This document shows positions 30,503-42,122 of a stretch of DNA of 61,213 nt, piece after piece. The stretch lies in contig NZ_AAWS01000054.1 in the NCBI RefSeq assembly GCF_000169175.1, positions 1 through 61,213 on the forward strand, written 5' to 3'. Each line of letters opens with the position of its first letter. Within the stretch, counting starts at the first letter, position 1. The DNA comes from Microscilla marina ATCC 23134 (GTDB taxonomy: Bacteria > Bacteroidota > Bacteroidia > Cytophagales > Microscillaceae). The notes below the pieces were generated by a model that was not told the origin of the DNA, searched no databases, and was given only the letters and a program-made list of their open reading frames with translations. A program made the translations under genes and the position numbers.

Positions 30503-33500
30503 ATGAGAAAAATTTTAAGTACAAAGTACCTGCTTACTTTGTTAGTGTTAACCACTTGCTTTTACAGTGTCAATGCACAAGAAGAGCGAGATTTAAGAGA
30601 AGACAGGGCAAAAGAAAGAGTAGAATACGAGCGAGCAATGCTTGTAGACCCTAAAACCGGAAAAATTCCGGATAGAATTTATCAGAAAAGTATTGAGTTT
30701 ATATACTCACCCAAATCACAGCTACAACCCCAGCACCAAAAATTTACTACTTCAATTACGGGCATTAGTGGTGCCAAATGGGCACAACGAGGACCTCATA
30801 ATGTAGGAGGGCGTACCAGAGCCTTGGCCATTGATCAGGCAAACGAGCAAGTGATTTTAGCGGGAGGAGCCTCAGGAGGAATGTGGCGCTCAGACAATGG
30901 AGGTGCCAGCTGGAGTAAAGTAACTGGAGCCTCGCAAAATCATAGTGTAACTGCCATTGCACAAGACCCACAAAGCCCTGCTACCTGGTATTATACCGCA
31001 GGAGAAGGCGCCGGCAACTCTGCCTCAGCGTCATTTTCGGCACCCTTTGTAGGCAATGGGGTATACAAGTCTACCGATAACGGGCTTACCTGGGTGTTGT
31101 TAACCAACACTGCCTCTGGAGCCAACGAAGGTGACAACCCTTTTAGAATTACCTGGAACGTAAAAGTACACCCCACCAATGGCGATGTATACGTGGCAAA
31201 TGCCCGCCGTTACTCTAACGGACAAAGTGGCATTTGGAGGTCTACTGATGGTGGAACCAACTGGAACTTAGTATTGGATGGTGATGGCGCTGGTTATACC
31301 GATATAGAAATTGCTGCTGATGGAGTGTTTTATGCTACTATTTCGAGTAGTGGTGGTACCCATAAAGGAATTTATCGTTCTACGGATGGTACAAACTGGG
31401 TAAACATTAACCCTGGTTTTTTGCCAGGTAGTTATGCGCGTATTGTATTGGCTGTGGCCCCTTCAAACAATAATGTGGTCTATTTCTTTGCTGCGGCAGG
31501 CACCACTGCCAATGGCCACAGTTTTTATAAGTATACTTATACTGCCGGAGAAGGCAATGGCGATGGAAGCCTAAAAAATGGGGGAGCCTGGGAAGACCGC
31601 TCTGCCCAACTGCCTACTGGAGGAGGGTCTACTGATGGTGGTTTATTGCAAGAAAACTATAACCAGTATGTAAAAGTAAAGCCTGACAACGAAAATATAG
31701 TGTTTATAGGAAGCACCAACCTATACCGTTCTATGGATGGTTTTGCTACTACTGGCAACACTGCCTGGATTGGCGGATACCACAAAACTAACTTCTTTTA
31801 TCCTGAGCATCACCCTGATAACCACAGCTTGGTTTTTTTCCCTTCTGATGCCAAAAAAATGATTAGCGGACACGATGGTGGTGTAAGTATTACTACCGAT
31901 AACCTTGCTACAGGTGGAGACCACCCAGTGGCTTGGACTTACCTAAATAACGGATACTATACTACACAGATATACGGTATGGACATTGACGCCAAAACTG
32001 CAGGTGACCCCCGTTTGAGCGCGGGTTTTCAGGATAATGGAAAATGGACTACCCATAGTTTTAGTGGTACCAGTCCCTGGAAACAGGAAAACTTCTTTGG
32101 TGATGGTGGTTATACAGCCATTGTACCCGGCAAAGATATTCGGTTCTTTAGCAACCAAAACGGGCACATGTTCAGGGTAACCGGAAACGATCCCGAAAAT
32201 CCTACCAGTGCAGTGTACTTACGCCCACAATCGTTTGGCTCTTACTTGTTTGTTACACCTTATGTGCTCGACCCCAACAATTCAAACACCATGTATTATT
32301 TGGTAGGGCCTACAGTATACCGTAATACCAATATCTTGTACACCAACAGTATCAATAACTGGGAGAACCTGGCAACTGCTTCTGCTGGAGGCGCCATTAC
32401 TGCAATCAATGTATCTGAGGAGAATCCTAAGCACCGGATTTATTATGGTACCAACAATGGCAAAGTATTTAGAATGGATGATGCCGATTCGGGAGACCCA
32501 ATACAAGTAGATATTTGGACGGGTAAAGGGTTGCCAGCAGGTGCTTATGTAAGTAATGTGGCAGTTGACCCAACCAATGGTGACAATGTTTTTGTGGTTT
32601 TCTCAAACTATGGCGTACAAAGTGTTTATTACTCGGCTGATGCAGGTGATACCTGGACGGCGGTAAGTGGAAACTTGGAAGAAAACCCTGATGGAACCGG
32701 AAATGGTCCTTCTACCCGTTGGTTAACTGTGCATGTTAAATCAGATGGTTCTAAGATATATTTGTTGGGTACAAGCGTAGGTTTGTATGCTACCAACATA
32801 CTGGATGGTATGAACACTCAGTGGGTACAAGAAGGCGCCAATACAATTGGTAATGTACCTGTAGTAATGATTAAGTCTCGTCGTTCCGATGGTTTGGTAG
32901 CTTTAGGTACGCATGGTACAGGTTTGTTTAGTGGTTATATTGGTGCTTCTGCCGATCTTACCATTGCTAATGTGTCGCCGCAAAGAGGAGAAGTAGGCAC
33001 TGAAGTAACCATCAATGGAACTAATTTTAGTGCAACTGCTGCCGATAATGTGGTAAAGTTTAATGGAACCATAGCTACAGTAACTGCTGCTACAGCAAAT
33101 AATTTGACCGTAACAGTGCCCGCAGGAGCAACTACCGGAAAAGTGACTGTAGAGGTAAACACAAAAACTGCCACTAGTGCCAACGACTTTACAGTGGTAC
33201 CTGTGATAAGTACTTACCCTCACTCAGAGAGTTTTGAAAATGGTGTATCAGACTGGATACAACCCACTACCGATGGTTTTGACTGGTCATTGGTGAATAA
33301 GTCTACCCCTACAGACCAAACTGGACCGGCAAAAGCATTTAGTGGAGACTTTTTCTTGTATACTGAGATCGACCAGTTTAGCCATGACACGTTTGATGAA
33401 CAACCATTGAACAAAAATAAAACGGCGCTCTTTACCAGCCCTACCTTTGACTTAACCAGCTTGACCAATCCAGAAGTATTATTTGCCTACCACATGTTTG

Positions 33501-36211
33501 GCGATAAAATGGGAACTTTGAGTTTGGAAGCCAGCACTGATGGTACCAATTGGCAGTCGGTATGGACAAAAACCGGGAATCAAAGTGATGCCTGGGCAAT
33601 TGCTGTGGTAGATGTGACTACCCACAAAAGTGCTACTACCAAGTTTAGGTTTGTAGGTGCCACTGGAGACGGTTCTACCAGTGACATAGCGATCGATGGA
33701 GTGATTGTGACAGAAGCTGGTACCCCTTTGATTTTTGACTTTGCCCCTCAAACCGTGATTGGTGGCTTTAGTAGTGTAGATATTTTGGGAGCAAACTTTG
33801 ATGCTACAGCCGCCAACAACGAAGTGAAGTTTAATGGAGTGGCTGGTACAATAACAGAAGCAACAACTACTACACTGAAGGTAAAAGTACCTTTGAATGC
33901 TACCACGGGTAAAATAGCCATTACAGTCAATGGTAAAACAGTTACTTCTACCAAAGACCTTAAGGTAATCGCACCTATTACTACCTTCCCTTATATCGAA
34001 AGCTTCGAGGCGGGCTTGGGTAAATGGATACAGGCAGAGAATGACGATATGGATTGGATACGTAAAAACGGTAAAACCCCTTCAGATAATACTGGGCCAA
34101 CTGCTGCCGCTGATGGTAGTTTTTATGTATATACCGAAGCTACGGGTAACTTTAACAAGAAAACTATTTTGGCAAGCGCATTATTTGATGCCAATACTGT
34201 AGACAACCCTTTATTTAGCTTTAAATACCACATGTATGGAGGCAATATGGGAAGCCTTGCGCTTGAGATTTCTTCAGATGGAGAAACTTGGACTTCCCTT
34301 TGGTCCAAAAGTGGAGACCAAGGCAATGCCTGGAAGAGTGATGGAGTGAGCCTGGAAGCGTATAAAAATGCGCCTTTTGTCTTACGCTTTGTAGGTACTA
34401 CCGGGGGCGGCTTCATGAGTGATATTAGTGTCGATCATTTACAATTACTTTCAGGACCAGGCATTGCAAGTTTTACCCCTACCAATGGAAAGGTAGGCGA
34501 TGTAGTAACCATTACAGGTAAAAGTTTTAGTACCGTAAAAGACGAGAATGTAGTAGAGTTTAATGGAATCAAAGCCATAGTAACTTCAGCTACTGCTACC
34601 CAAATTGTTACTACCGTACCAAATACAGCCACTACTGGAAAAATTAGAATAGCTGTAAACGGGTTACCCACCATTAGTAAGGATGACTTTACCGTAGTGG
34701 CTTCAGGAGCTGTGCCTACCATTACTAACATTAGTCCAATGGCTGGTGTAATTGGGCAAAGCATCAACATAGAAGGAACCAATTTTAGTGTACCCAAAGA
34801 CAATAACCAAGTGTATTTCAATGGTCTGGTAGCTACTATAGAGTCTGCTACTGCTACATCGTTGGTGGTGAAAGTACCTACCAATGCTACCAGTGGTAAA
34901 ATAAAGGTAGTAAATGTTGGAGGACAAAGTGTAGAGTCTACCAATGACTTTATTGTGTATTGTGCATCAAAAGCTGCATCAACCGATGACTCCAGGATCG
35001 ATAATTTTACACTGAATGAAATCAACCATACGACTGATGGTGTAGGTGTGTGTTCAGATTACAGCGATTTTACCAGTATTTCAACCCATGTAATCACTGG
35101 AGTTACTTACCCCTTCAGTGTAAAAGCTGGAAGTTGTAATGGTGATTATACCAAGTTTGTAAAAGTATATGTTGACTGGAACCAGGATGGAGACTTTAGT
35201 GACGCAAATGAATTTTTGGGTGGAAATGCTGTGGCAATAAGAGAACCAGGTGTATTTGAGTCAACGGTTACGGTGCCTACCAATGCCTTGTTAGGAAGAA
35301 CCAGATTAAGAGTAGTGTTAGGAGAGGTTGCTTCTGCTGATCAGGTACAAGCTTGTGGGCCATATAATTTTGGTGAAACTGAAGATTATAGCATTGTTAT
35401 ACTGGAAAAACCTGAAATAACATCTTTTGCTCCTGATAGAGGCAAAGTAGGGCAACACGTGAGTATCAATGGGAAGAATTTTCCTGACAAGTCGGCGTAT
35501 GTGAGCGTGAAGTTTGCGAAAGGCATAGCGGCTACCGTAGCGTCAGTAAACAGCACCCAGATTAAAGCAATAGTACCTGAAGGAGCCATTACTGGACCTA
35601 TAACTGTAACAGTGGCAGGGCAGTCTATTACCAGTACGTTTGATTTTACGGTGATTCCAGATACACCCGTTGCTCCTGATAAGCTGGCATTGAAGCTGGT
35701 AAATGGAATGGTACAACTTACCTGGAGCGACAACTCTGACAATGAAACCGCTTTTTATATTGAGCGTTCAGCCCCCGATGCCCTTGACAAATTTGTAAAA
35801 GTAGGTGAAGTATCGGCTGGCATCACAGAATATAGCGAAGATGTGAAGAACTTATTGTCTAAACATCATTACCGTGTGGCTGCAGTAAATAGTGCAGGTG
35901 TTTCTGCTTATTCTAATGTAGCATCGTTTGACGCCGAAGTATTAAGTGTACAAAGTGTGTTATTGGCACAAAGGTTAAAAATTACGCCTAACCCTAACCA
36001 TGGTAAGTTCAATGTTGAGATTGGGCAAGCTAACCATGCGACCATCAAGTTAGAGGTGATAGATGCCAAAGGCCGACTTGTGAAAGTATTGAACTTAGCA
36101 GGACAACAAGGCAAGTACCCTGTAAACTTATCTGAGTTGCGTCAAGGAGTATATACCTTACGTATCTCGGCAGGTAAAGCCAATGCTGCCATTAAATATA
36201 TGAAGCAATAA
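30503..36211 (+). CDS. Giant secreted multi-domain protein with type IX sorting domain
   Basis: The 1,902-residue protein has a signal peptide (1-25, ending VNA). Residues about 90-800 form BNR/sortilin-type beta-propeller repeats (GMWRSDNGGASW, GVYKSTDNGLTW). IPT/TIG domains lie at about 815-898, 1076-1158, 1318-1400, 1403-1487 and 1634-1720, each starting with a P-x-x-G-x-V-G-like turn. Two MAM-like jelly-roll domains lie at about 900-1075 and 1159-1315 (both begin with SFE). A GEVED domain with the acidic metal-like loop VDWNQDGDFSD lies near 1560, and a fibronectin III domain at about 1720-1813. The C-terminal sorting domain (1826-1902, ITPNPNHGKFNVEI ... GVYTLRIS) directs type IX secretion and surface attachment. 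It is probably an adhesin or scaffold; no protease motif is seen. Confidence 0.9.
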   Translation: MRKILSTKYLLTLLVLTTCFYSVNAQEERDLREDRAKERVEYERAMLVDPKTGKIPDRIYQKSIEFIYSPKSQLQPQHQKFTTSITGISGAKWAQRGPHNVGGRTRALAIDQANEQVILAGGASGGMWRSDNGGASWSKVTGASQNHSVTAIAQDPQSPATWYYTAGEGAGNSASASFSAPFVGNGVYKSTDNGLTWVLLTNTASGANEGDNPFRITWNVKVHPTNGDVYVANARRYSNGQSGIWRSTDGGTNWNLVLDGDGAGYTDIEIAADGVFYATISSSGGTHKGIYRSTDGTNWVNINPGFLPGSYARIVLAVAPSNNNVVYFFAAAGTTANGHSFYKYTYTAGEGNGDGSLKNGGAWEDRSAQLPTGGGSTDGGLLQENYNQYVKVKPDNENIVFIGSTNLYRSMDGFATTGNTAWIGGYHKTNFFYPEHHPDNHSLVFFPSDAKKMISGHDGGVSITTDNLATGGDHPVAWTYLNNGYYTTQIYGMDIDAKTAGDPRLSAGFQDNGKWTTHSFSGTSPWKQENFFGDGGYTAIVPGKDIRFFSNQNGHMFRVTGNDPENPTSAVYLRPQSFGSYLFVTPYVLDPNNSNTMYYLVGPTVYRNTNILYTNSINNWENLATASAGGAITAINVSEENPKHRIYYGTNNGKVFRMDDADSGDPIQVDIWTGKGLPAGAYVSNVAVDPTNGDNVFVVFSNYGVQSVYYSADAGDTWTAVSGNLEENPDGTGNGPSTRWLTVHVKSDGSKIYLLGTSVGLYATNILDGMNTQWVQEGANTIGNVPVVMIKSRRSDGLVALGTHGTGLFSGYIGASADLTIANVSPQRGEVGTEVTINGTNFSATAADNVVKFNGTIATVTAATANNLTVTVPAGATTGKVTVEVNTKTATSANDFTVVPVISTYPHSESFENGVSDWIQPTTDGFDWSLVNKSTPTDQTGPAKAFSGDFFLYTEIDQFSHDTFDEQPLNKNKTALFTSPTFDLTSLTNPEVLFAYHMFGDKMGTLSLEASTDGTNWQSVWTKTGNQSDAWAIAVVDVTTHKSATTKFRFVGATGDGSTSDIAIDGVIVTEAGTPLIFDFAPQTVIGGFSSVDILGANFDATAANNEVKFNGVAGTITEATTTTLKVKVPLNATTGKIAITVNGKTVTSTKDLKVIAPITTFPYIESFEAGLGKWIQAENDDMDWIRKNGKTPSDNTGPTAAADGSFYVYTEATGNFNKKTILASALFDANTVDNPLFSFKYHMYGGNMGSLALEISSDGETWTSLWSKSGDQGNAWKSDGVSLEAYKNAPFVLRFVGTTGGGFMSDISVDHLQLLSGPGIASFTPTNGKVGDVVTITGKSFSTVKDENVVEFNGIKAIVTSATATQIVTTVPNTATTGKIRIAVNGLPTISKDDFTVVASGAVPTITNISPMAGVIGQSINIEGTNFSVPKDNNQVYFNGLVATIESATATSLVVKVPTNATSGKIKVVNVGGQSVESTNDFIVYCASKAASTDDSRIDNFTLNEINHTTDGVGVCSDYSDFTSISTHVITGVTYPFSVKAGSCNGDYTKFVKVYVDWNQDGDFSDANEFLGGNAVAIREPGVFESTVTVPTNALLGRTRLRVVLGEVASADQVQACGPYNFGETEDYSIVILEKPEITSFAPDRGKVGQHVSINGKNFPDKSAYVSVKFAKGIAATVASVNSTQIKAIVPEGAITGPITVTVAGQSITSTFDFTVIPDTPVAPDKLALKLVNGMVQLTWSDNSDNETAFYIERSAPDALDKFVKVGEVSAGITEYSEDVKNLLSKHHYRVAAVNSAGVSAYSNVASFDAEVLSVQSVLLAQRLKITPNPNHGKFNVEIGQANHATIKLEVIDAKGRLVKVLNLAGQQGKYPVNLSELRQGVYTLRISAGKANAAIKYMKQ

Positions 36212-36306
36212 AAAGGTATAAAACGCGACTTTTACTTGTCGTTTATTGTTTTTAGTCAGGGCTACCTGCTAGGGATTCCTGACTTTTAACTGATACTAAT
36301 TTGACC

Positions 36307-36341
36307 AAAAAAGCCGAATACGTTTTGTATTCGGCTTTTTT
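36307..36341 (+). terminator. Terminator of the giant surface protein gene
   Basis: A perfect 15-bp stem (AAAAAAGCCGAATAC with GTATTCGGCTTTTTT) with a 5-nt loop lies 95 nt after the stop. Confidence 0.88.
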
Positions 36342-36450
36342 GCTTAAGAGCTTGAAAATTGATATAAAGCATTATAGTTATATATTGGATTTAAATAATT
36401 ATATTTGTTAATATTTAACATACAATCATTCAAACTATTTGAATCAATGT

Positions 36451-36480
36451 TTTGCCTGAAATATATAATCTTTATGTTTG
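36451..36480 (+). promoter_or_regulatory. Candidate leu operon promoter
   Basis: TTTG (36451-36454) and TATGTTTG (36473-36480) lie 18 nt apart, one less than the usual Bacteroidota spacing. Transcription would start within a few bases of the leader ATG at 36487, so the leader peptide could be translated from a nearly leaderless mRNA. A further -7-like box, TATATTTG (36400-36407), has no well-placed partner. Confidence 0.5.
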
Positions 36481-36486
36481 CTTTAC

Positions 36487-36552
36487 ATGACAAAAGAAAT
36501 AAGCATACTATTATCAATTCTTAACCTGCTGCTGATTCTCTATAATTGGTAG
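36487..36552 (+). CDS. leuL: leu operon leader peptide
   Basis: This 21-residue open frame runs from ATG to TAG and encodes MTKEISILLSILNLLLILYN followed by Trp. Seven of 21 residues are Leu, including three consecutive CTG codons, and four are Ile. It lies 296 nt before leuC and ends directly at the antiterminator segment. This is the classical arrangement of an attenuation leader in which ribosomes stall at Leu codons when charged tRNA-Leu is scarce. The assignment rests on position, codon content and RNA pairing; it has no protein family. Confidence 0.8.
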   Translation: MTKEISILLSILNLLLILYNW

Positions 36553-36634
36553 TAGGGGTGATATGCTTATATCTAATTGTCAAAACAACGACATTACAAC
36601 AACACCTCTAAAAAGCTTAGGGGTGTTTTTTTTT
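36553..36634 (+). promoter_or_regulatory. Transcription attenuator of the leu operon
   Basis: The terminator has an 11-bp stem (36601-36611 with 36617-36627, one G-T pair) and a T-run (36626-36634). The segment TAGGGGTG at 36553-36560, right after the leader stop codon, is identical to the 3' arm of the terminator. It can therefore pair with its 5' arm CACCTCTA (36603-36610) as an antiterminator. A ribosome finishing the leader would cover 36553-36560 and let the terminator form; one stalled at the Leu codons would leave it free. Confidence 0.8.
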
Positions 36635-36847
36635 GTCTGATAATTAAAATATTGATTTTAAGCCAAGGCGGTGAATAAGTATCAAGGCAAAGTTAGTTTT
36701 ATATATGGTTGAGTTTATTTGTAAATGAGCTGAGATCGGTATTTAAGGACTTGCTACCATTGCACCGTTATACATCGGCACCTAAGGACTTGCTGCTATT
36801 TAATATGGCAACACATTTTGAAACATTCATCATAATTATGAAGAGGT

Positions 36848-38257
36848 ATGGAACAAACACCATCTCAAACATTATTTGATAAGATATGGAAACGTCATGT
36901 TGTGCAACAACAAGAAGGGTTTCCGGCGGTATTGTATATAGACCGTCACTTTATCCATGAGGTTACCAGCCCTCAGGCATTTACTGGTCTCAGGCAACGC
37001 AATATTGGGGTTTTCAGACCCAAACAGACCATTGCCACCGCTGACCATAACGTGCCTACTGTAGACCAACATTTGCCTATCAAAGAAGCGCTTTCGCGCA
37101 AACAAGTAGAAACCCTCACCAAAAACTGTGAAGAGTTTGGGGTTGAATTGTACGGTTTGGGGCATGAAAAACAAGGCATTGTACACGTAATTGGTCCCGA
37201 ATTGGGCATTACCCAACCAGGGCAAACCATTGTTTGTGGCGATAGTCATACCTCTACCCATGGTGCTTTTGGTACTATAGCTTTTGGCATAGGTACCAGT
37301 CAGGTAGAGCAAGTACTTGCTACGCAAACCTTGTTGCAGTACCGCCCCAAGACAATGTTGATCAAAGTAGATGGAACACTCAATAAAGGGGTAACTGCAA
37401 AAGATGTGATTTTGTATGTGATCGCCAAACTAGGTACGGACGGAGGTACTGGACACTTTGTAGAATATGCTGGTACAGCCATTCAATCTTTGTCAATGGA
37501 AGGGCGAATGACCGTGTGCAATATGAGCATTGAAATGGGGGCTCGTGGTGGAATGATTGCCCCAGATGAGGTAACCTTTGACTATATGAAAGGCAGACCA
37601 CATGCTCCACAGGGCGAACAATGGGACAAAGCAATAGCAGATTGGAAAACACTTTATTCTGATAAAGATGCAGTGTTTGACACGGTCTATGAGTTTGATG
37701 CTGCCGACATTGAACCAATGATTACCTACGGCACCAACCCTGGAATGGGCATTGGCATTAGCCAACACGTACCTGAACTCTCCCACCTCAAAGAAACAGA
37801 AAAAACCTCCTTTAAAAAATCCCTTGAATATATGAATCTAAATACCGGGCAATCGTTGCTGGGAAAAAAAATAGATTATGTATTTATAGGAAGTTGCACC
37901 AACGCCCGCATCGAGGATTTGCGTCTGGTGGCAGACTTTGTCAAGGGCAAACAAAAATCTGCTGATGTAGAAGTATGGATTGTGCCTGGTTCTCAAGCAG
38001 TATTGCGTCAAGCGCAAAAAGAAAAATTAGACATGGTGTTTAGCGAAGCAGGCTTTAAACTGCGTGAACCTGGTTGTTCGGCGTGTTTGGCAATGAACGA
38101 AGACAAAGTGCCTGCGGGTAAATATTGTGTATCTACTTCGAACCGAAACTTTGAAGGACGACAAGGCCCCGGATCGCGTACCTTTTTGGCAAGCCCGTTG
38201 ATGGCGGCCGCTGCTGCCATCAATGGCAAAGTAGTAGATGTAAGGGCTTATTTATAA
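36848..38257 (+). CDS. leuC: 3-isopropylmalate dehydratase large subunit
   Basis: The 469-residue protein is the catalytic large subunit of isopropylmalate isomerase, second step of leucine synthesis, in the cytoplasm with LeuD. The [4Fe-4S] ligands are present: Cys350 in [14 protein letters not shown], and Cys410 and Cys413 in GCSACLAMN. The aconitase-type motif [13 protein letters not shown] lies near 128-140. The length is that of bacterial LeuC (465-470). The ATG at 36848 starts [14 protein letters not shown], the standard N-terminus. First structural gene after the attenuator; leuD follows after 153 nt. Confidence 0.97.
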
Positions 38258-38410
38258 GGATTAGTTCATAGTTCCACTATGGGCAGCAAATCGTGAATAG
38301 CCGACCGTTACCTATTACATCTGAACATTAAATTAATCAAGCGTTTAGCCACTTACGACTACTTGTTGCTTGAAGCTAACTGCTTGCTACTTTTTTTAAA
38401 CCAAAAAATT

Positions 38411-39022
38411 ATGAAAGATTCATCATTTGGGTTGTTGCAAACGACTGGAGTGCCTGTAAAGGTAGAAAATGTAGATACAGATCAAATTATTCCGGCGCGT
38501 TTTCTCAAAGCCATTAGCCGTGAAGGCTTTGGTGAAAACCTGTTTTATGACTGGCGTTATGACAATGAGGGCAACCCCAAACCTGACTTTATATTAAACC
38601 AACCCGGCAACGATGGTCAGGTATTGGTTGGAGGCAAAAACTTTGGCTGTGGCTCTAGCCGTGAGCATGCTGCCTGGGCTATCAAAGACTATGGTTTCAA
38701 GGCGGTCATTTCCAGTTTTTTTGCTGATATCTTCAAAGGCAATGCCTTGAACAACGGGGTGTTGCCTGTGCAAGTGTCTGATGCTTTTTTGGCCAGGTTA
38801 TTTGACTTGATGGAGCAAGATGCTACCACCCCTATAGCCATAGACTTAGAGGCACAAACTGTGGCGGTGACCAATAAGCAAACAGGTGAAACAATGACCG
38901 AAATTTTTGAAATAAATGAGTATAAAAAAATGTGTTTGCAAAAAGGCTACGATGATATAGACTATTTGTTAAGCCTGCAAACCCAAGTAGAAACCTACGA
39001 AAAAAATAAGGCTGTTTACTAA
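38411..39022 (+). CDS. leuD: 3-isopropylmalate dehydratase small subunit
   Basis: The protein has 203 residues from the ATG at 38411 ([16 protein letters not shown]). The longer frame from 38363 adds a hydrophobic stretch with no family match. Signatures are [14 protein letters not shown] near residues 19-32 and the swivel-domain motif [17 protein letters not shown] near 77-93. It completes the isomerase with LeuC. leuB begins 22 nt later, so these two are tightly coupled. Confidence 0.97.
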
Positions 39023-39044: not shown

Positions 39045-40151
39045 ATGACGCATAAAAAAATCGTGGTGCTTGCTGGAGATGGTATAGGACCCGAAGTAAC
39101 CAAATGTGCCCGCGAGGTGCTTGAAGTAATAGGCACTATCAGTGGACAAAAATTTGAGTTTGAAGACGCCTTGATTGGGCACTCGGCTATAGAAGCCACT
39201 GGGGAGCCTTTGCCCCAAGCCACCCTTGACAAGTGCCAACAAGCCGATGCTATTTTATTAGGGGCAGTGGGGCATCCTATGTACGACAATAACCCAGGTG
39301 CTAAAGTACGCCCTGAACAAGGTTTGTTAAAGCTAAGAAAATCGCTGGAGTTGTTTGCCAACATTCGCCCCATCAAGTTATTTGATGAGTTGCTGCACAG
39401 TTCAAGCATCAAACCTGAAATATTGCAAGGGGTAGATATCTTGTTTTTCAGAGAATTGACCAGCGGTATTTACTTTGGTACACCCCGCGAGCGTTCGGCA
39501 GACGGCAACTCAGCAATTGATACCTTGGCTTATACCAAAGAAGAGGTAAGGCGCATTGCCAAAAAAGCATTTAAAGCCGCCAGCCAACGCAACAAAAAAG
39601 TATGCTCGGTAGACAAAGCCAATGTATTGGAAACCTCTCGCCTATGGCGCGAAGTAGTGACCGAGGTTGCCAAAGATTACCCTGAAGTAACCCTTACCCA
39701 CATGTTTGTTGACAACGCCTCTATGCAACTGATTCGTGACCCGCGTCAGTTTGATGTAGTGCTTACTGGAAATATGTTTGGCGATATATTGACCGATGAA
39801 GCCTCACAAATTGCCGGATCGATGGGAATGCTTGCTTCTGCCTCTATGGGTGAACAAACCAGCGTATACGAACCCATTCACGGGTCGGCACCCGATATTG
39901 CCGGAAAAGGCATTGCCAACCCATTGGCAGCTATTTTATCAGTGGCACTCATGCTCGATTTGTCTTTGGGCATGCCCAACGAAGCTCGCCAGGTAGAGCA
40001 AGCCGTTGCCGATGTACTAAGCCAGGGCTACCGTACGGTAGACATTGCTGAAGAAGGTTTGACACCAGAAAAGCAATTGAATACTGAACAAATGAGTGAA
40101 AAAGTAAAAGAAGTATTGTTGAAGAATAAGTCAGTAGTCAATAGCCAGTAG
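39045..40151 (+). CDS. leuB: 3-isopropylmalate dehydrogenase
   Basis: The 368-residue, NAD-dependent enzyme oxidises and decarboxylates 3-isopropylmalate to the precursor of leucine. Family marks are the start KKIVVLAGDGIGPEV, the substrate loop RELTSGIYFGTPRE, Asp/Asn residues in HMFVDNASMQL and NMFGDILTDEAS, and the NAD-loop HGSAPDIAGKG. The length is normal. The next gene, leuA, is 462 nt away, and this gap holds palindromic element D. Confidence 0.97.
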   Translation: MTHKKIVVLAGDGIGPEVTKCAREVLEVIGTISGQKFEFEDALIGHSAIEATGEPLPQATLDKCQQADAILLGAVGHPMYDNNPGAKVRPEQGLLKLRKSLELFANIRPIKLFDELLHSSSIKPEILQGVDILFFRELTSGIYFGTPRERSADGNSAIDTLAYTKEEVRRIAKKAFKAASQRNKKVCSVDKANVLETSRLWREVVTEVAKDYPEVTLTHMFVDNASMQLIRDPRQFDVVLTGNMFGDILTDEASQIAGSMGMLASASMGEQTSVYEPIHGSAPDIAGKGIANPLAAILSVALMLDLSLGMPNEARQVEQAVADVLSQGYRTVDIAEEGLTPEKQLNTEQMSEKVKEVLLKNKSVVNSQ

Positions 40152-40353
40152 CCCCGACAAGGTTCTAGGTACACCTTGCTCCATAGGCAACTAACAAATT
40201 CATAATATGCTTATTTTCAATAGGTGATGAAAAAGTGGTTTGCTTATTTGCAAATGTAAGAATTTTGTGGCTACCAAACTTCATCTACCGATTTTATAAG
40301 TATTTAAAAATCAAAGTATTATAAAACAGGTAGTATATTTGAAGAACTAGGAC

Positions 40354-40509
40354 TTTCTTATAAAAAATGAGAATCCTCTCTGAAGCTTGCAAAGTACGAG
40401 GTTTCGATCGGGCGTGGAGACACTGCCCTCCGAGGGCAAGCTCGGAGCAGGCGAGGCGGAAATATGGTTTTTCGGGGGTATATTCTCTTAAATAGCTTTT
40501 TATAAGAAA
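40354..40509. repeat. Palindromic element, type D, inside the leu operon
   Basis: This 156-bp element is bounded by perfect 13-bp inverted repeats (TTTCTTATAAAAA at 40354-40366, TTTTTATAAGAAA at 40497-40509). A short perfect hairpin TGCCCTC/GAGGGCA lies at 40424-40437, centred on the element's midpoint. The right half contains GGAGCAGGCGAGGCGGAAAT, only loosely like the other types. It sits between leuB and leuA. The rest of the 462-bp gap holds no gene. Confidence 0.7.
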
Positions 40510-40613
40510 ACCCTGCTTGAAGAACAGCTTAAAGCTAATGGCTAAAGGCTTTAGGCTGTAGAAGCTACGGACTGCCGACTCCCAACTAATAACTAAATAA
40601 ACACAAGAAAATA

Positions 40614-42122
40614 ATGTCTGATAATAGAGTATATATATTTGATACAACCCTTAGAGATGGCGAACAAGTGCCCGGTTGTCAATTACAAACATCTGAAAAA
40701 ATTGTAGTAGCAAAAACCCTCGAAAAACTAGGGGTAGATGTCATAGAAGCTGGTTTCCCAATTTCCAGCCCTGGCGATTTTCAATCAGTCATAGAAATAT
40801 CCAAGGCAGTAAGCAACCCCATTATTTGTGCCTTGACCCGTGCCAACCAGAAAGACATTGAGGTAGCGGTTGACTCATTGAAACACGCCAAACGCAAACG
40901 TATTCATACAGGTATTGGAGCTTCTGACTACCACATCAAGCACAAGTTTCGCAGTACCCGCGAAGATATCATGGAGCGAGGCATAGCTGCAGTAAAGTTC
41001 GCAAAAAAATATGTAGAAGACATTGAGTTTTATGCTGAAGATGCCGGACGTGCTGATTTAGAATTTTTAGCCCGCATGCTCGAAGGCGTCATTGCGGCAG
41101 GTGCTACTGTAGTCAACATTCCAGATACTACCGGGTATTGCCTGCCCGAAGAGTATGGCGCCAAGATTAAATATTTGGTAGACAATGTCAAAAATATCGA
41201 CAAGGCGATCATATCGGTACACTGCCATAATGATTTAGGCATGGCAACCGCTAACTCTATTGCCGGGGTGATTCAGGGAGCCCGCCAAATAGAATGTACC
41301 ATCAATGGGGTAGGAGAACGTGCTGGTAACACCTCGCTCGAAGAAGTGGTTATGATTATGAAAACCCACAACGACCTCCACCTTGAAACTGAGATAAAAA
41401 CTCAAGAGTTGAACTCAACCAGTGGGCTTATCTCTCGTTTGATGCGTATGCCTGTACAGCCCAACAAGGCTATAGTAGGACGCAATGCTTTTGCCCACTC
41501 CTCAGGAATCCATCAGGATGGGGTGCTTAAAAGCCGCGAAAACTACGAAATTATCGACCCTGCCGATGTAGGCGTGGCTAATTCGTCTATTGTGCTTACA
41601 GCGCGTAGTGGACGTGCCGCCTTGAAACACCGCCTGGAGCTATTGGGGCACCAGTATGAGGGCGAAAAGCTGGACGAAATCTATCAGCGTTTTTTGGTAA
41701 TGGCAGACAAGCAAAGAGAAATCAGAGATGAGGATTTACTTACTTTGGCGGGTGATACTACGTTGGCAGACAGCCAGGTAACGCTGAAGTCTTTGAACGT
41801 AACTTGTGGTACTACTACTCCAAGTGCTACCATTGAGGTGATTTATCAAGGGGAGTTGAAAAAAGGTACAGCCAAAGGCAACGGACCTATAGATGCCGCA
41901 GTAAATGCCCTGCATACTATAGTGGGGCAACGTGTAGCGTTAAAAGAAATCTTGATCCAGACTATTACCAGTGGCAGCGATGATCTTGGGAAGGTGCACG
42001 TGCAGCTTGGGCGCGATAGCCTGGTGTATTATGGTTTTGCTGCTCATAGTGACATTGTACTTGCTGCAGTCAATGCGTATATTGATGCACTTAATAAGGT
42101 ACCAGTAAAGGTAGAGGCATAG
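40614..42122 (+). CDS. leuA: 2-isopropylmalate synthase
   Basis: The 502-residue enzyme joins acetyl-CoA and 2-oxoisovalerate, the committed step of leucine synthesis. The N-terminal TIM barrel shows [14 protein letters not shown] (metal Asp in TTLRDGEQ), [14 protein letters not shown] (metal His pair in H-x-H) and the NGVGERAGN loop. The C-terminal LeuA dimerisation/allosteric domain covers about 390-502, so it is probably feedback-inhibited by leucine. It is last in the operon; a 17-bp terminator stem follows. A 52-bp patch of its 3' end (41939-41990) reappears at 43118-43169. Confidence 0.97.

Follow-up and report, generated by a model that had tools for sequence, protein, structure and literature searches.

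In enteric leu, trp and his attenuators, a leader rich in codons for the end product is followed by protector, antiterminator and terminator hairpins, with the biosynthetic operon behind, and an attenuator survey by Vitreschak and others (2004) reportedly names Bacteroidetes/Chlorobi among its groups. Within this phylum, going by the relevant parts of the sources, Bacteroid-trp (Rfam RF01692; PMC2864571) is a leader-peptide RNA with a terminator, amino-acid operons of Flavobacterium psychrophilum have been proposed to be preceded by leader-peptide attenuators (PMC9723704), and leader-like frames occur in 5' UTRs of B. thetaiotaomicron (PMC7366714). Further afield, the account of C. glutamicum ilvBNC (PMC11857589), in the portion that concerns us, gives terminator, antiterminator and anti-antiterminator hairpins, a leader with Ile/Val/Leu codons and transcription that begins one nucleotide from the start codon of this leader.

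The element considered here lies before the leucine operon of Microscilla marina, in a window of 61,213 nucleotides (the whole stretch of DNA analysed). It shares with the enteric leu, trp and his systems the order of leader, three hairpins and operon, but differs from them in belonging to another phylum, in having no visible Shine-Dalgarno sequence, a predicted 2-nt 5' UTR and an arm directly after the stop codon, and in lacking an Rfam match. Bacteroid-trp, although similar in kind, has Trp codons and trp genes, and the leu element does not match the RF01692 model. The F. psychrophilum proposal has phylum and mechanism in common with our element, with no leu leader named in the text section concerned, and C. 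glutamicum ilvBNC resembles it in hairpins and leader but belongs to another phylum and another operon. No leader family of Rfam release 15 reaches its cut-off in the window (the best leader match is Phe_leader, at 20.7 bits against 55), and T-box and riboswitch models of Rfam 15 neither match in the window nor figure among the 12 matches on the region. Among the literature matches listed, mainly non-subscription, no title names a leu attenuator in Bacteroidetes. The mechanism is a classic one, leader-peptide attenuation has already been proposed in the phylum, and the leu element, which is well supported at the level of sequence, matches no Rfam family at cut-off; new about it are its protector hairpin, a start that is probably near-leaderless and an arm-on-stop-codon design that recurs before several leu/ilv operons.

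The features on which the argument turns are the following:

36309-36339, + strand: terminator-like hairpin of the upstream gene (30503-36211)
36451-36454, + strand: candidate -33 element TTTG, a consensus match only, 18 nt before the -7 box
36473-36480, + strand: -7 box TATGTTTG, an exact match to the consensus TAnnTTTG
36487-36552, + strand: leader frame MTKEISILLSILNLLLILYNW, from ATG 36487 to stop TAG 36550-36552, 21 codons, 7 of them Leu
36488-36582, + strand: protector (1:2) hairpin, with inner helix 36525-36537/36544-36556, then 36511-36515/36557-36561 and 36499-36507/36562-36570
36520-36540, + strand: stall zone, codons 12-18 (CTT AAC CTG CTG CTG ATT CTC), which frees the antiterminator arm in the model
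36553-36560, + strand: antiterminator arm TAGGGGTG, adjoining the leader stop and pairing with 36603-36610 (8 pairs, one G-U)
36601-36634, + strand: intrinsic terminator AACACCTCTAA-5-TTAGGGGTGTT, arms 36601-36611/36617-36627, 11 pairs, T-run to 36634
36848-38257, + strand: leuC, NCBIfam TIGR00170, 698.6 bits (cut-off 560.25)
38363-39022, + strand: leuD, NCBIfam TIGR00171, 196.4 bits (cut-off 116.25), frame listed from TTG 38363
39045-40151, + strand: leuB, NCBIfam TIGR00169, 486.5 bits (cut-off 353.2)
40614-42122, + strand: leuA, NCBIfam TIGR00973, 641.9 bits (cut-off 598.7), 462 nt behind leuB

All four leu genes pass their NCBIfam cut-offs, which bears out the order leuCDBA that the first-pass annotation had read downstream of the leader. 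For leuD a start at ATG 38411 is likelier than one at TTG 38363, and leuA may have its own promoter, given the 462-nt gap between leuB and leuA (40152-40613), in which no leader frame was seen by eye. The gene upstream of the element has a terminator-like hairpin of its own (36309-36339) and so does not need the terminator at 36601. The spacer ahead of leuC contains TAAGGACTTGCT twice (36744-36755 and 36783-36794), in a part where the copy from the same genus has a 75-position deletion.

Ahead of leuC stands a short frame rich in codons for the end product of the operon. As that annotation had it, this is a 21-codon frame with seven Leu codons (CTA TTA CTT CTG CTG CTG CTC), the three CTG being consecutive; a frame of 15-25 codons that opens with ATG and has seven or more Leu arises in 52 of 5000 dinucleotide shuffles of 36400-36600. 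None of the seven is TTG, though TTG is the commonest Leu codon across 12 window frames (38.6% of 752), and as a meaningful codon choice this avoidance is suggestive only. The leader peptide matches no known protein family and no Shine-Dalgarno sequence is seen ahead of it.

The TAnnTTTG box occupies -12 to -5 relative to the transcript start, according to the promoter part of PMC9723704. With TATGTTTG at 36473-36480, this position predicts a start at about 36485, 2 nt before the leader ATG, and the leader mRNA may therefore be nearly leaderless. Leaderless mRNAs make up 5.5% of mapped mRNAs in the same paper's relevant section, so that a 2-nt 5' UTR would be unusual but not unknown. Near-leaderless attenuator leaders are also described, in the passages that deal with them, for S. 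meliloti trpL (PMC7298713) and C. glutamicum ilvBNC (PMC11857589). The spacing is preserved in the same-genus copy (L084). A leaderless start as a general feature of such leaders was considered and rejected: boxes found before the other leaders discussed below lie at least 14 nt from the ATG, the exception being the trp leader, which has a one-mismatch box 3 nt before its ATG plus an exact box at 32 nt. Before the leaders of L118 and L143 the -7 box search found none.

An intrinsic terminator sits between leader and leuC. The 11-bp stem with T-run noticed at the outset was recovered by the terminator scan at 36601-36627, and there are five terminator-like sites on both strands of 35800-37200, against a shuffle mean of 1.0 (sd 1.2). 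Equally present in the sequence is the 8-base segment just 3' of the leader stop that had been described as complementary to the terminator 5' arm, and the 8-pair antiterminator helix that it can form excludes the terminator. A helix as good as that of TAGGGGTG appears in 0.7% of 3000 shuffles of 36550-36600 if its position is left free, and in 0.2% if it must lie in the first 19 nt; under a harsher test, in which only the 25 nt around the stop are shuffled, the focal arm has p = 0.042.

On one point the first-pass annotation was mistaken. It saw no visible pause hairpin and proposed a simplified two-structure form, but the segment 36487-36600 folds at -32.6 kcal/mol (z = -6.62, with none of 200 shuffles as good) and a protector hairpin (36488-36582) conceals the antiterminator arm; the two-structure form is rejected in favour of a three-structure attenuator, as in the enteric scheme. 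One strand of the inner helix, 36525-36537, contains the three CTG codons, and the next helix occupies the remainder of the antiterminator arm. The protector thus pairs Leu codons with the arm, so that the arm is concealed unless a ribosome sits on the Leu codons.

To follow the arm as a ribosome moves along the leader, we masked all sequence upstream of the ribosome leading edge and folded transcripts whose 3' end is 36616. The antiterminator probability is 0.00 at codon 1, 0.04 at codon 2, 0.30-0.39 at codons 3-9, 0.82 at codon 10, 0.93-0.95 at codons 11-18, 0.82 at codon 19 and 0.39 at codon 20; it is 0.00 at the Trp and stop codons, and 0.000 for the untranslated RNA. It is in this fold model, and there only, that a stall at the control codons frees the arm and a ribosome at the stop masks it. 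The pattern is kept with leading edges of 10, 12, 13, 15 and 17 nt, its edges moving by a codon or two (at 17 nt, the probability at codon 18 drops to 0.70), and with a leading edge of 13 nt the two earliest Leu codons, 8 and 9, are weak points of control. When 36484-36549 is shuffled and the remainder kept, the arm is as well hidden in 10 of 500 cases and the mean antiterminator probability is 0.61; in the model, the concealed arm is special to this leader. Without translation no antiterminator forms in the model because the protector hairpin takes up the whole arm, which would lead to termination, as in the enteric three-structure scheme. Note that once the transcript is complete the terminator prevails wherever the ribosome stands (probability 0.95, against 0.00 for the antiterminator), so that the switch must be kinetic; the antiterminator is short, at 8 pairs, and is worth -7.1 kcal/mol as a bare helix and -10.5 with inner hairpins, the terminator -12.9.

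On the strength of its anatomy and of the folding model, the element is in all likelihood a transcription attenuator of the trp/leu/his type, ribosome-mediated and responsive to leucine, and ribosomes stalled for leucine very probably switch the genes on via competing RNA hairpins. RNA polymerase would start near 36485 and a ribosome would load immediately on the near-leaderless AUG. Given ample Leu-tRNA, that ribosome would get to the stop codon and cover 36553-36560, and the terminator would end the RNA at about 36634. Were leucine short, it would stall at codons 12-18, holding the 5' half of the protector hairpin, and the freed segment 36553-36560 would pair with 36603-36610 before the terminator 3' arm is synthesised, so that leuCDBA would be transcribed. 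Without translation the protector hairpin would form, making termination the default. The original proposal of attenuation before leuCDBA is supported by leader, arms, terminator and gene context, all of which fit, and by the recurrence of this anatomy in relatives; it is the two-structure form that had to be given up, since a protector hairpin exists.

How well is the element preserved? In the one other genome of the genus (L084) the 148-nt element (36487-36634) carries no substitutions, compared with five in the 187 nt before it (36300-36486); the 213-nt spacer behind it has 20, and 75 deleted positions besides. The arms are unchanged in this sole same-genus copy; in other leu/ilv leaders they differ between lineages and stay complementary. 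No DNA homologous to the element was found outside the genus: five of 390 order genomes matched, two being the genome itself and that of the same genus. Of the other three matches, judged by eye, L183 has a terminator stem that looks alike, L184 is unrelated sequence and L185 is the beginning of a protein frame. High-identity leuC is present in six of the 15 family genomes (G000, G001, G002, G003, G005 and G006). Outside the genus, the only family genome with a leader directly before leuC is G006, where a 40-codon frame ending SLPLLLLPSSWV has leuC behind it. G002 has a Leu/Ile/Val-rich leader before ilvE without a clear arm, and no leader passed our criteria in G003 or G005, where only 2.4 and 3.8 kb of contig precede leuC.

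Among wider relatives, two partly overlapping sets were considered (L028, L029 and L042 in one, G086, G147 and G137 in the other): 60 regions upstream of leuC, namely that of G005 and 59 drawn from order genomes (of 148 searched, 89 have a strong leuC), and 80 loci with up to 2 kb upstream (five with less). Leader, arm and terminator occur together on the leuC strand in six of the 60 regions (L113, L118, L120, L121, L166 and L168) and two of the 80 loci (L056 and L072). These eight further loci have a Leu/Ile/Val-rich leader, an arm at its stop and a terminator before leuA, leuC, ilvD or ilvE; by NCBIfam the genes behind are ilvE (L118, L121), ilvD (L120, L166, L168) and leuA (L056, L072), and leuC lies behind L113. 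At L118 and L121 two consecutive terminators precede ilvE. Most of the regions show no such leader on the leuC strand; in these the operon may start elsewhere or the terminator may fall below the thresholds used. At L137 and L150 leaders are found on the opposite strand; the genes behind them look like ilvE and ilvD, going by their first residues only.

A scan for stop, arm and terminator across 142 regions (963,649 nt) gave 24 forward and seven reverse matches, and leu/ilv leaders account for 10 of the 24, window and L084 included. The Leu+Ile+Val fraction of leader ends hardly differs between forward and reverse matches (0.350 versus 0.326), but that of Leu alone does (0.186 versus 0.074). 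Because two of the seven reverse matches (L137 and L150) are themselves Leu/Ile/Val-rich, the reverse strand is no clean null.

The M. marina genome itself holds further leaders of this sort. Upstream of ilvE (L171, G000:C18, - strand) lie two consecutive Ile/Leu/Val-rich leaders, MQNYLVIVNLIIILVIINRPGVKWLCQL and MIHCVCISLLILVIIIILYFN, each followed by a terminator; the double unit sits about 1.4 to 1.1 kb upstream of ilvD, and both leaders recur, little changed, in the same-genus genome. The arm of the second lies on its own stop, and the best arm of the first 26 nt before the stop. Upstream of trpE (L172, G000:C5, - strand), a leader frame MNEKSLHITRCWWWHKRELSSVNSPVVYV with WWW and a terminator matches Rfam Bacteroid-trp at 56.1 bits (cut-off 49). 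A His-rich 51-codon frame ending IHHHPHHLAHHHCH upstream of hisG (L176, G000:C18, - strand) is probably a histidine leader; the terminator scan found no terminator before hisG.

We then asked where the arm lies in 15 leader/terminator pairs: that of the window, 12 chosen by composition and terminator, and the two of L171, chosen by eye. Seven of 17 rows (two from L121, two from L152, L125, L154 and L156), judged by eye to be coding, distant or not before such a gene, were dropped, as was L032. The best helix to the terminator 5' arm starts within -9 to +8 of the stop in 13 of the 15, against 2.8 expected under even placement, in a sample where the arm was not a criterion for the 12 but the arms of most had already been seen before counting. 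Three of the 13 are weak (L111, L126 and L146, with 4-6 pairs and p of 0.23-0.75), and the two that fall outside this range are L143 and the first of the L171 leaders. Arm shuffles give p < 0.05 in nine of the 15, with p = 0.083 for L113. L111, L126, L143 and L146 have Leu/Ile/Val-rich leaders (with a Leu run in L143 and L146) and terminators, no clear arm at the stop, and ilvE, ilvA or a leuA-like gene behind; perhaps they use another pairing scheme.

Other scenarios might explain the arrangement at leu. The frame could encode an unrelated small hydrophobic peptide, with its own terminator, that stands before leuC by accident. The peptide is indeed short, hydrophobic and without a match to a known family, but one would have to put down to coincidence the complementarity of arm and terminator, a protector hairpin that involves the Leu codons, and the repeated presence of Leu/Ile/Val-rich leaders ahead of leu/ilv genes; this is the least credible of the alternatives. 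Scarcely more probable is a terminator that is constitutive or under some other factor, be it a protein, Rho or another RNA ligand, with the leader frame not decisive. Such a scenario would sit well with a terminator that is more stable at equilibrium at every ribosome position; it has to contend with the lack of any Rfam riboswitch or T-box match on the region and with an arm whose availability, in the model, depends on where the ribosome stalls.

A more serious alternative, though in our judgement an unlikely one, accepts a genuine leader-peptide attenuator and has it sense branched-chain amino acids jointly (Leu and Ile) rather than leucine alone. Four codons of the leader are Ile and one of these, codon 17, falls within the effective stall zone; however, codons 12-18 comprise five Leu and one Ile. 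Val is found in all eight ilvE/ilvD leaders (L118, L121, L120, L166, L168, L111 and both of L171) but neither in the window leader nor in the leuA leaders L056 and L072, a split between leader classes read by eye from a small sample. Against this split, two Val occur outside the Leu run in each of three leaders, that of L113 (leuC) and those of L143 and L146 (leuA-like gene). An attenuator responsive to leucine remains the reading we prefer.

For the lineage as a whole, the balance stands about even on whether leader-peptide attenuation is general for amino-acid operons (one genome having it at leu, twice before ilvE, at trp and perhaps at his) and includes a branched-chain class, not yet catalogued, in which the arm lies on the leader stop or immediately behind it, together with an mRNA that at leu is near-leaderless and loaded without a Shine-Dalgarno sequence. 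The leu element offers a concrete amino-acid attenuator for a phylum in which few such systems have been described and whose mRNAs are largely without Shine-Dalgarno sequences. It also draws attention to a class of branched-chain leaders absent from Rfam. If its mRNA is near-leaderless, how the first ribosome loads and races RNA polymerase would become directly testable.
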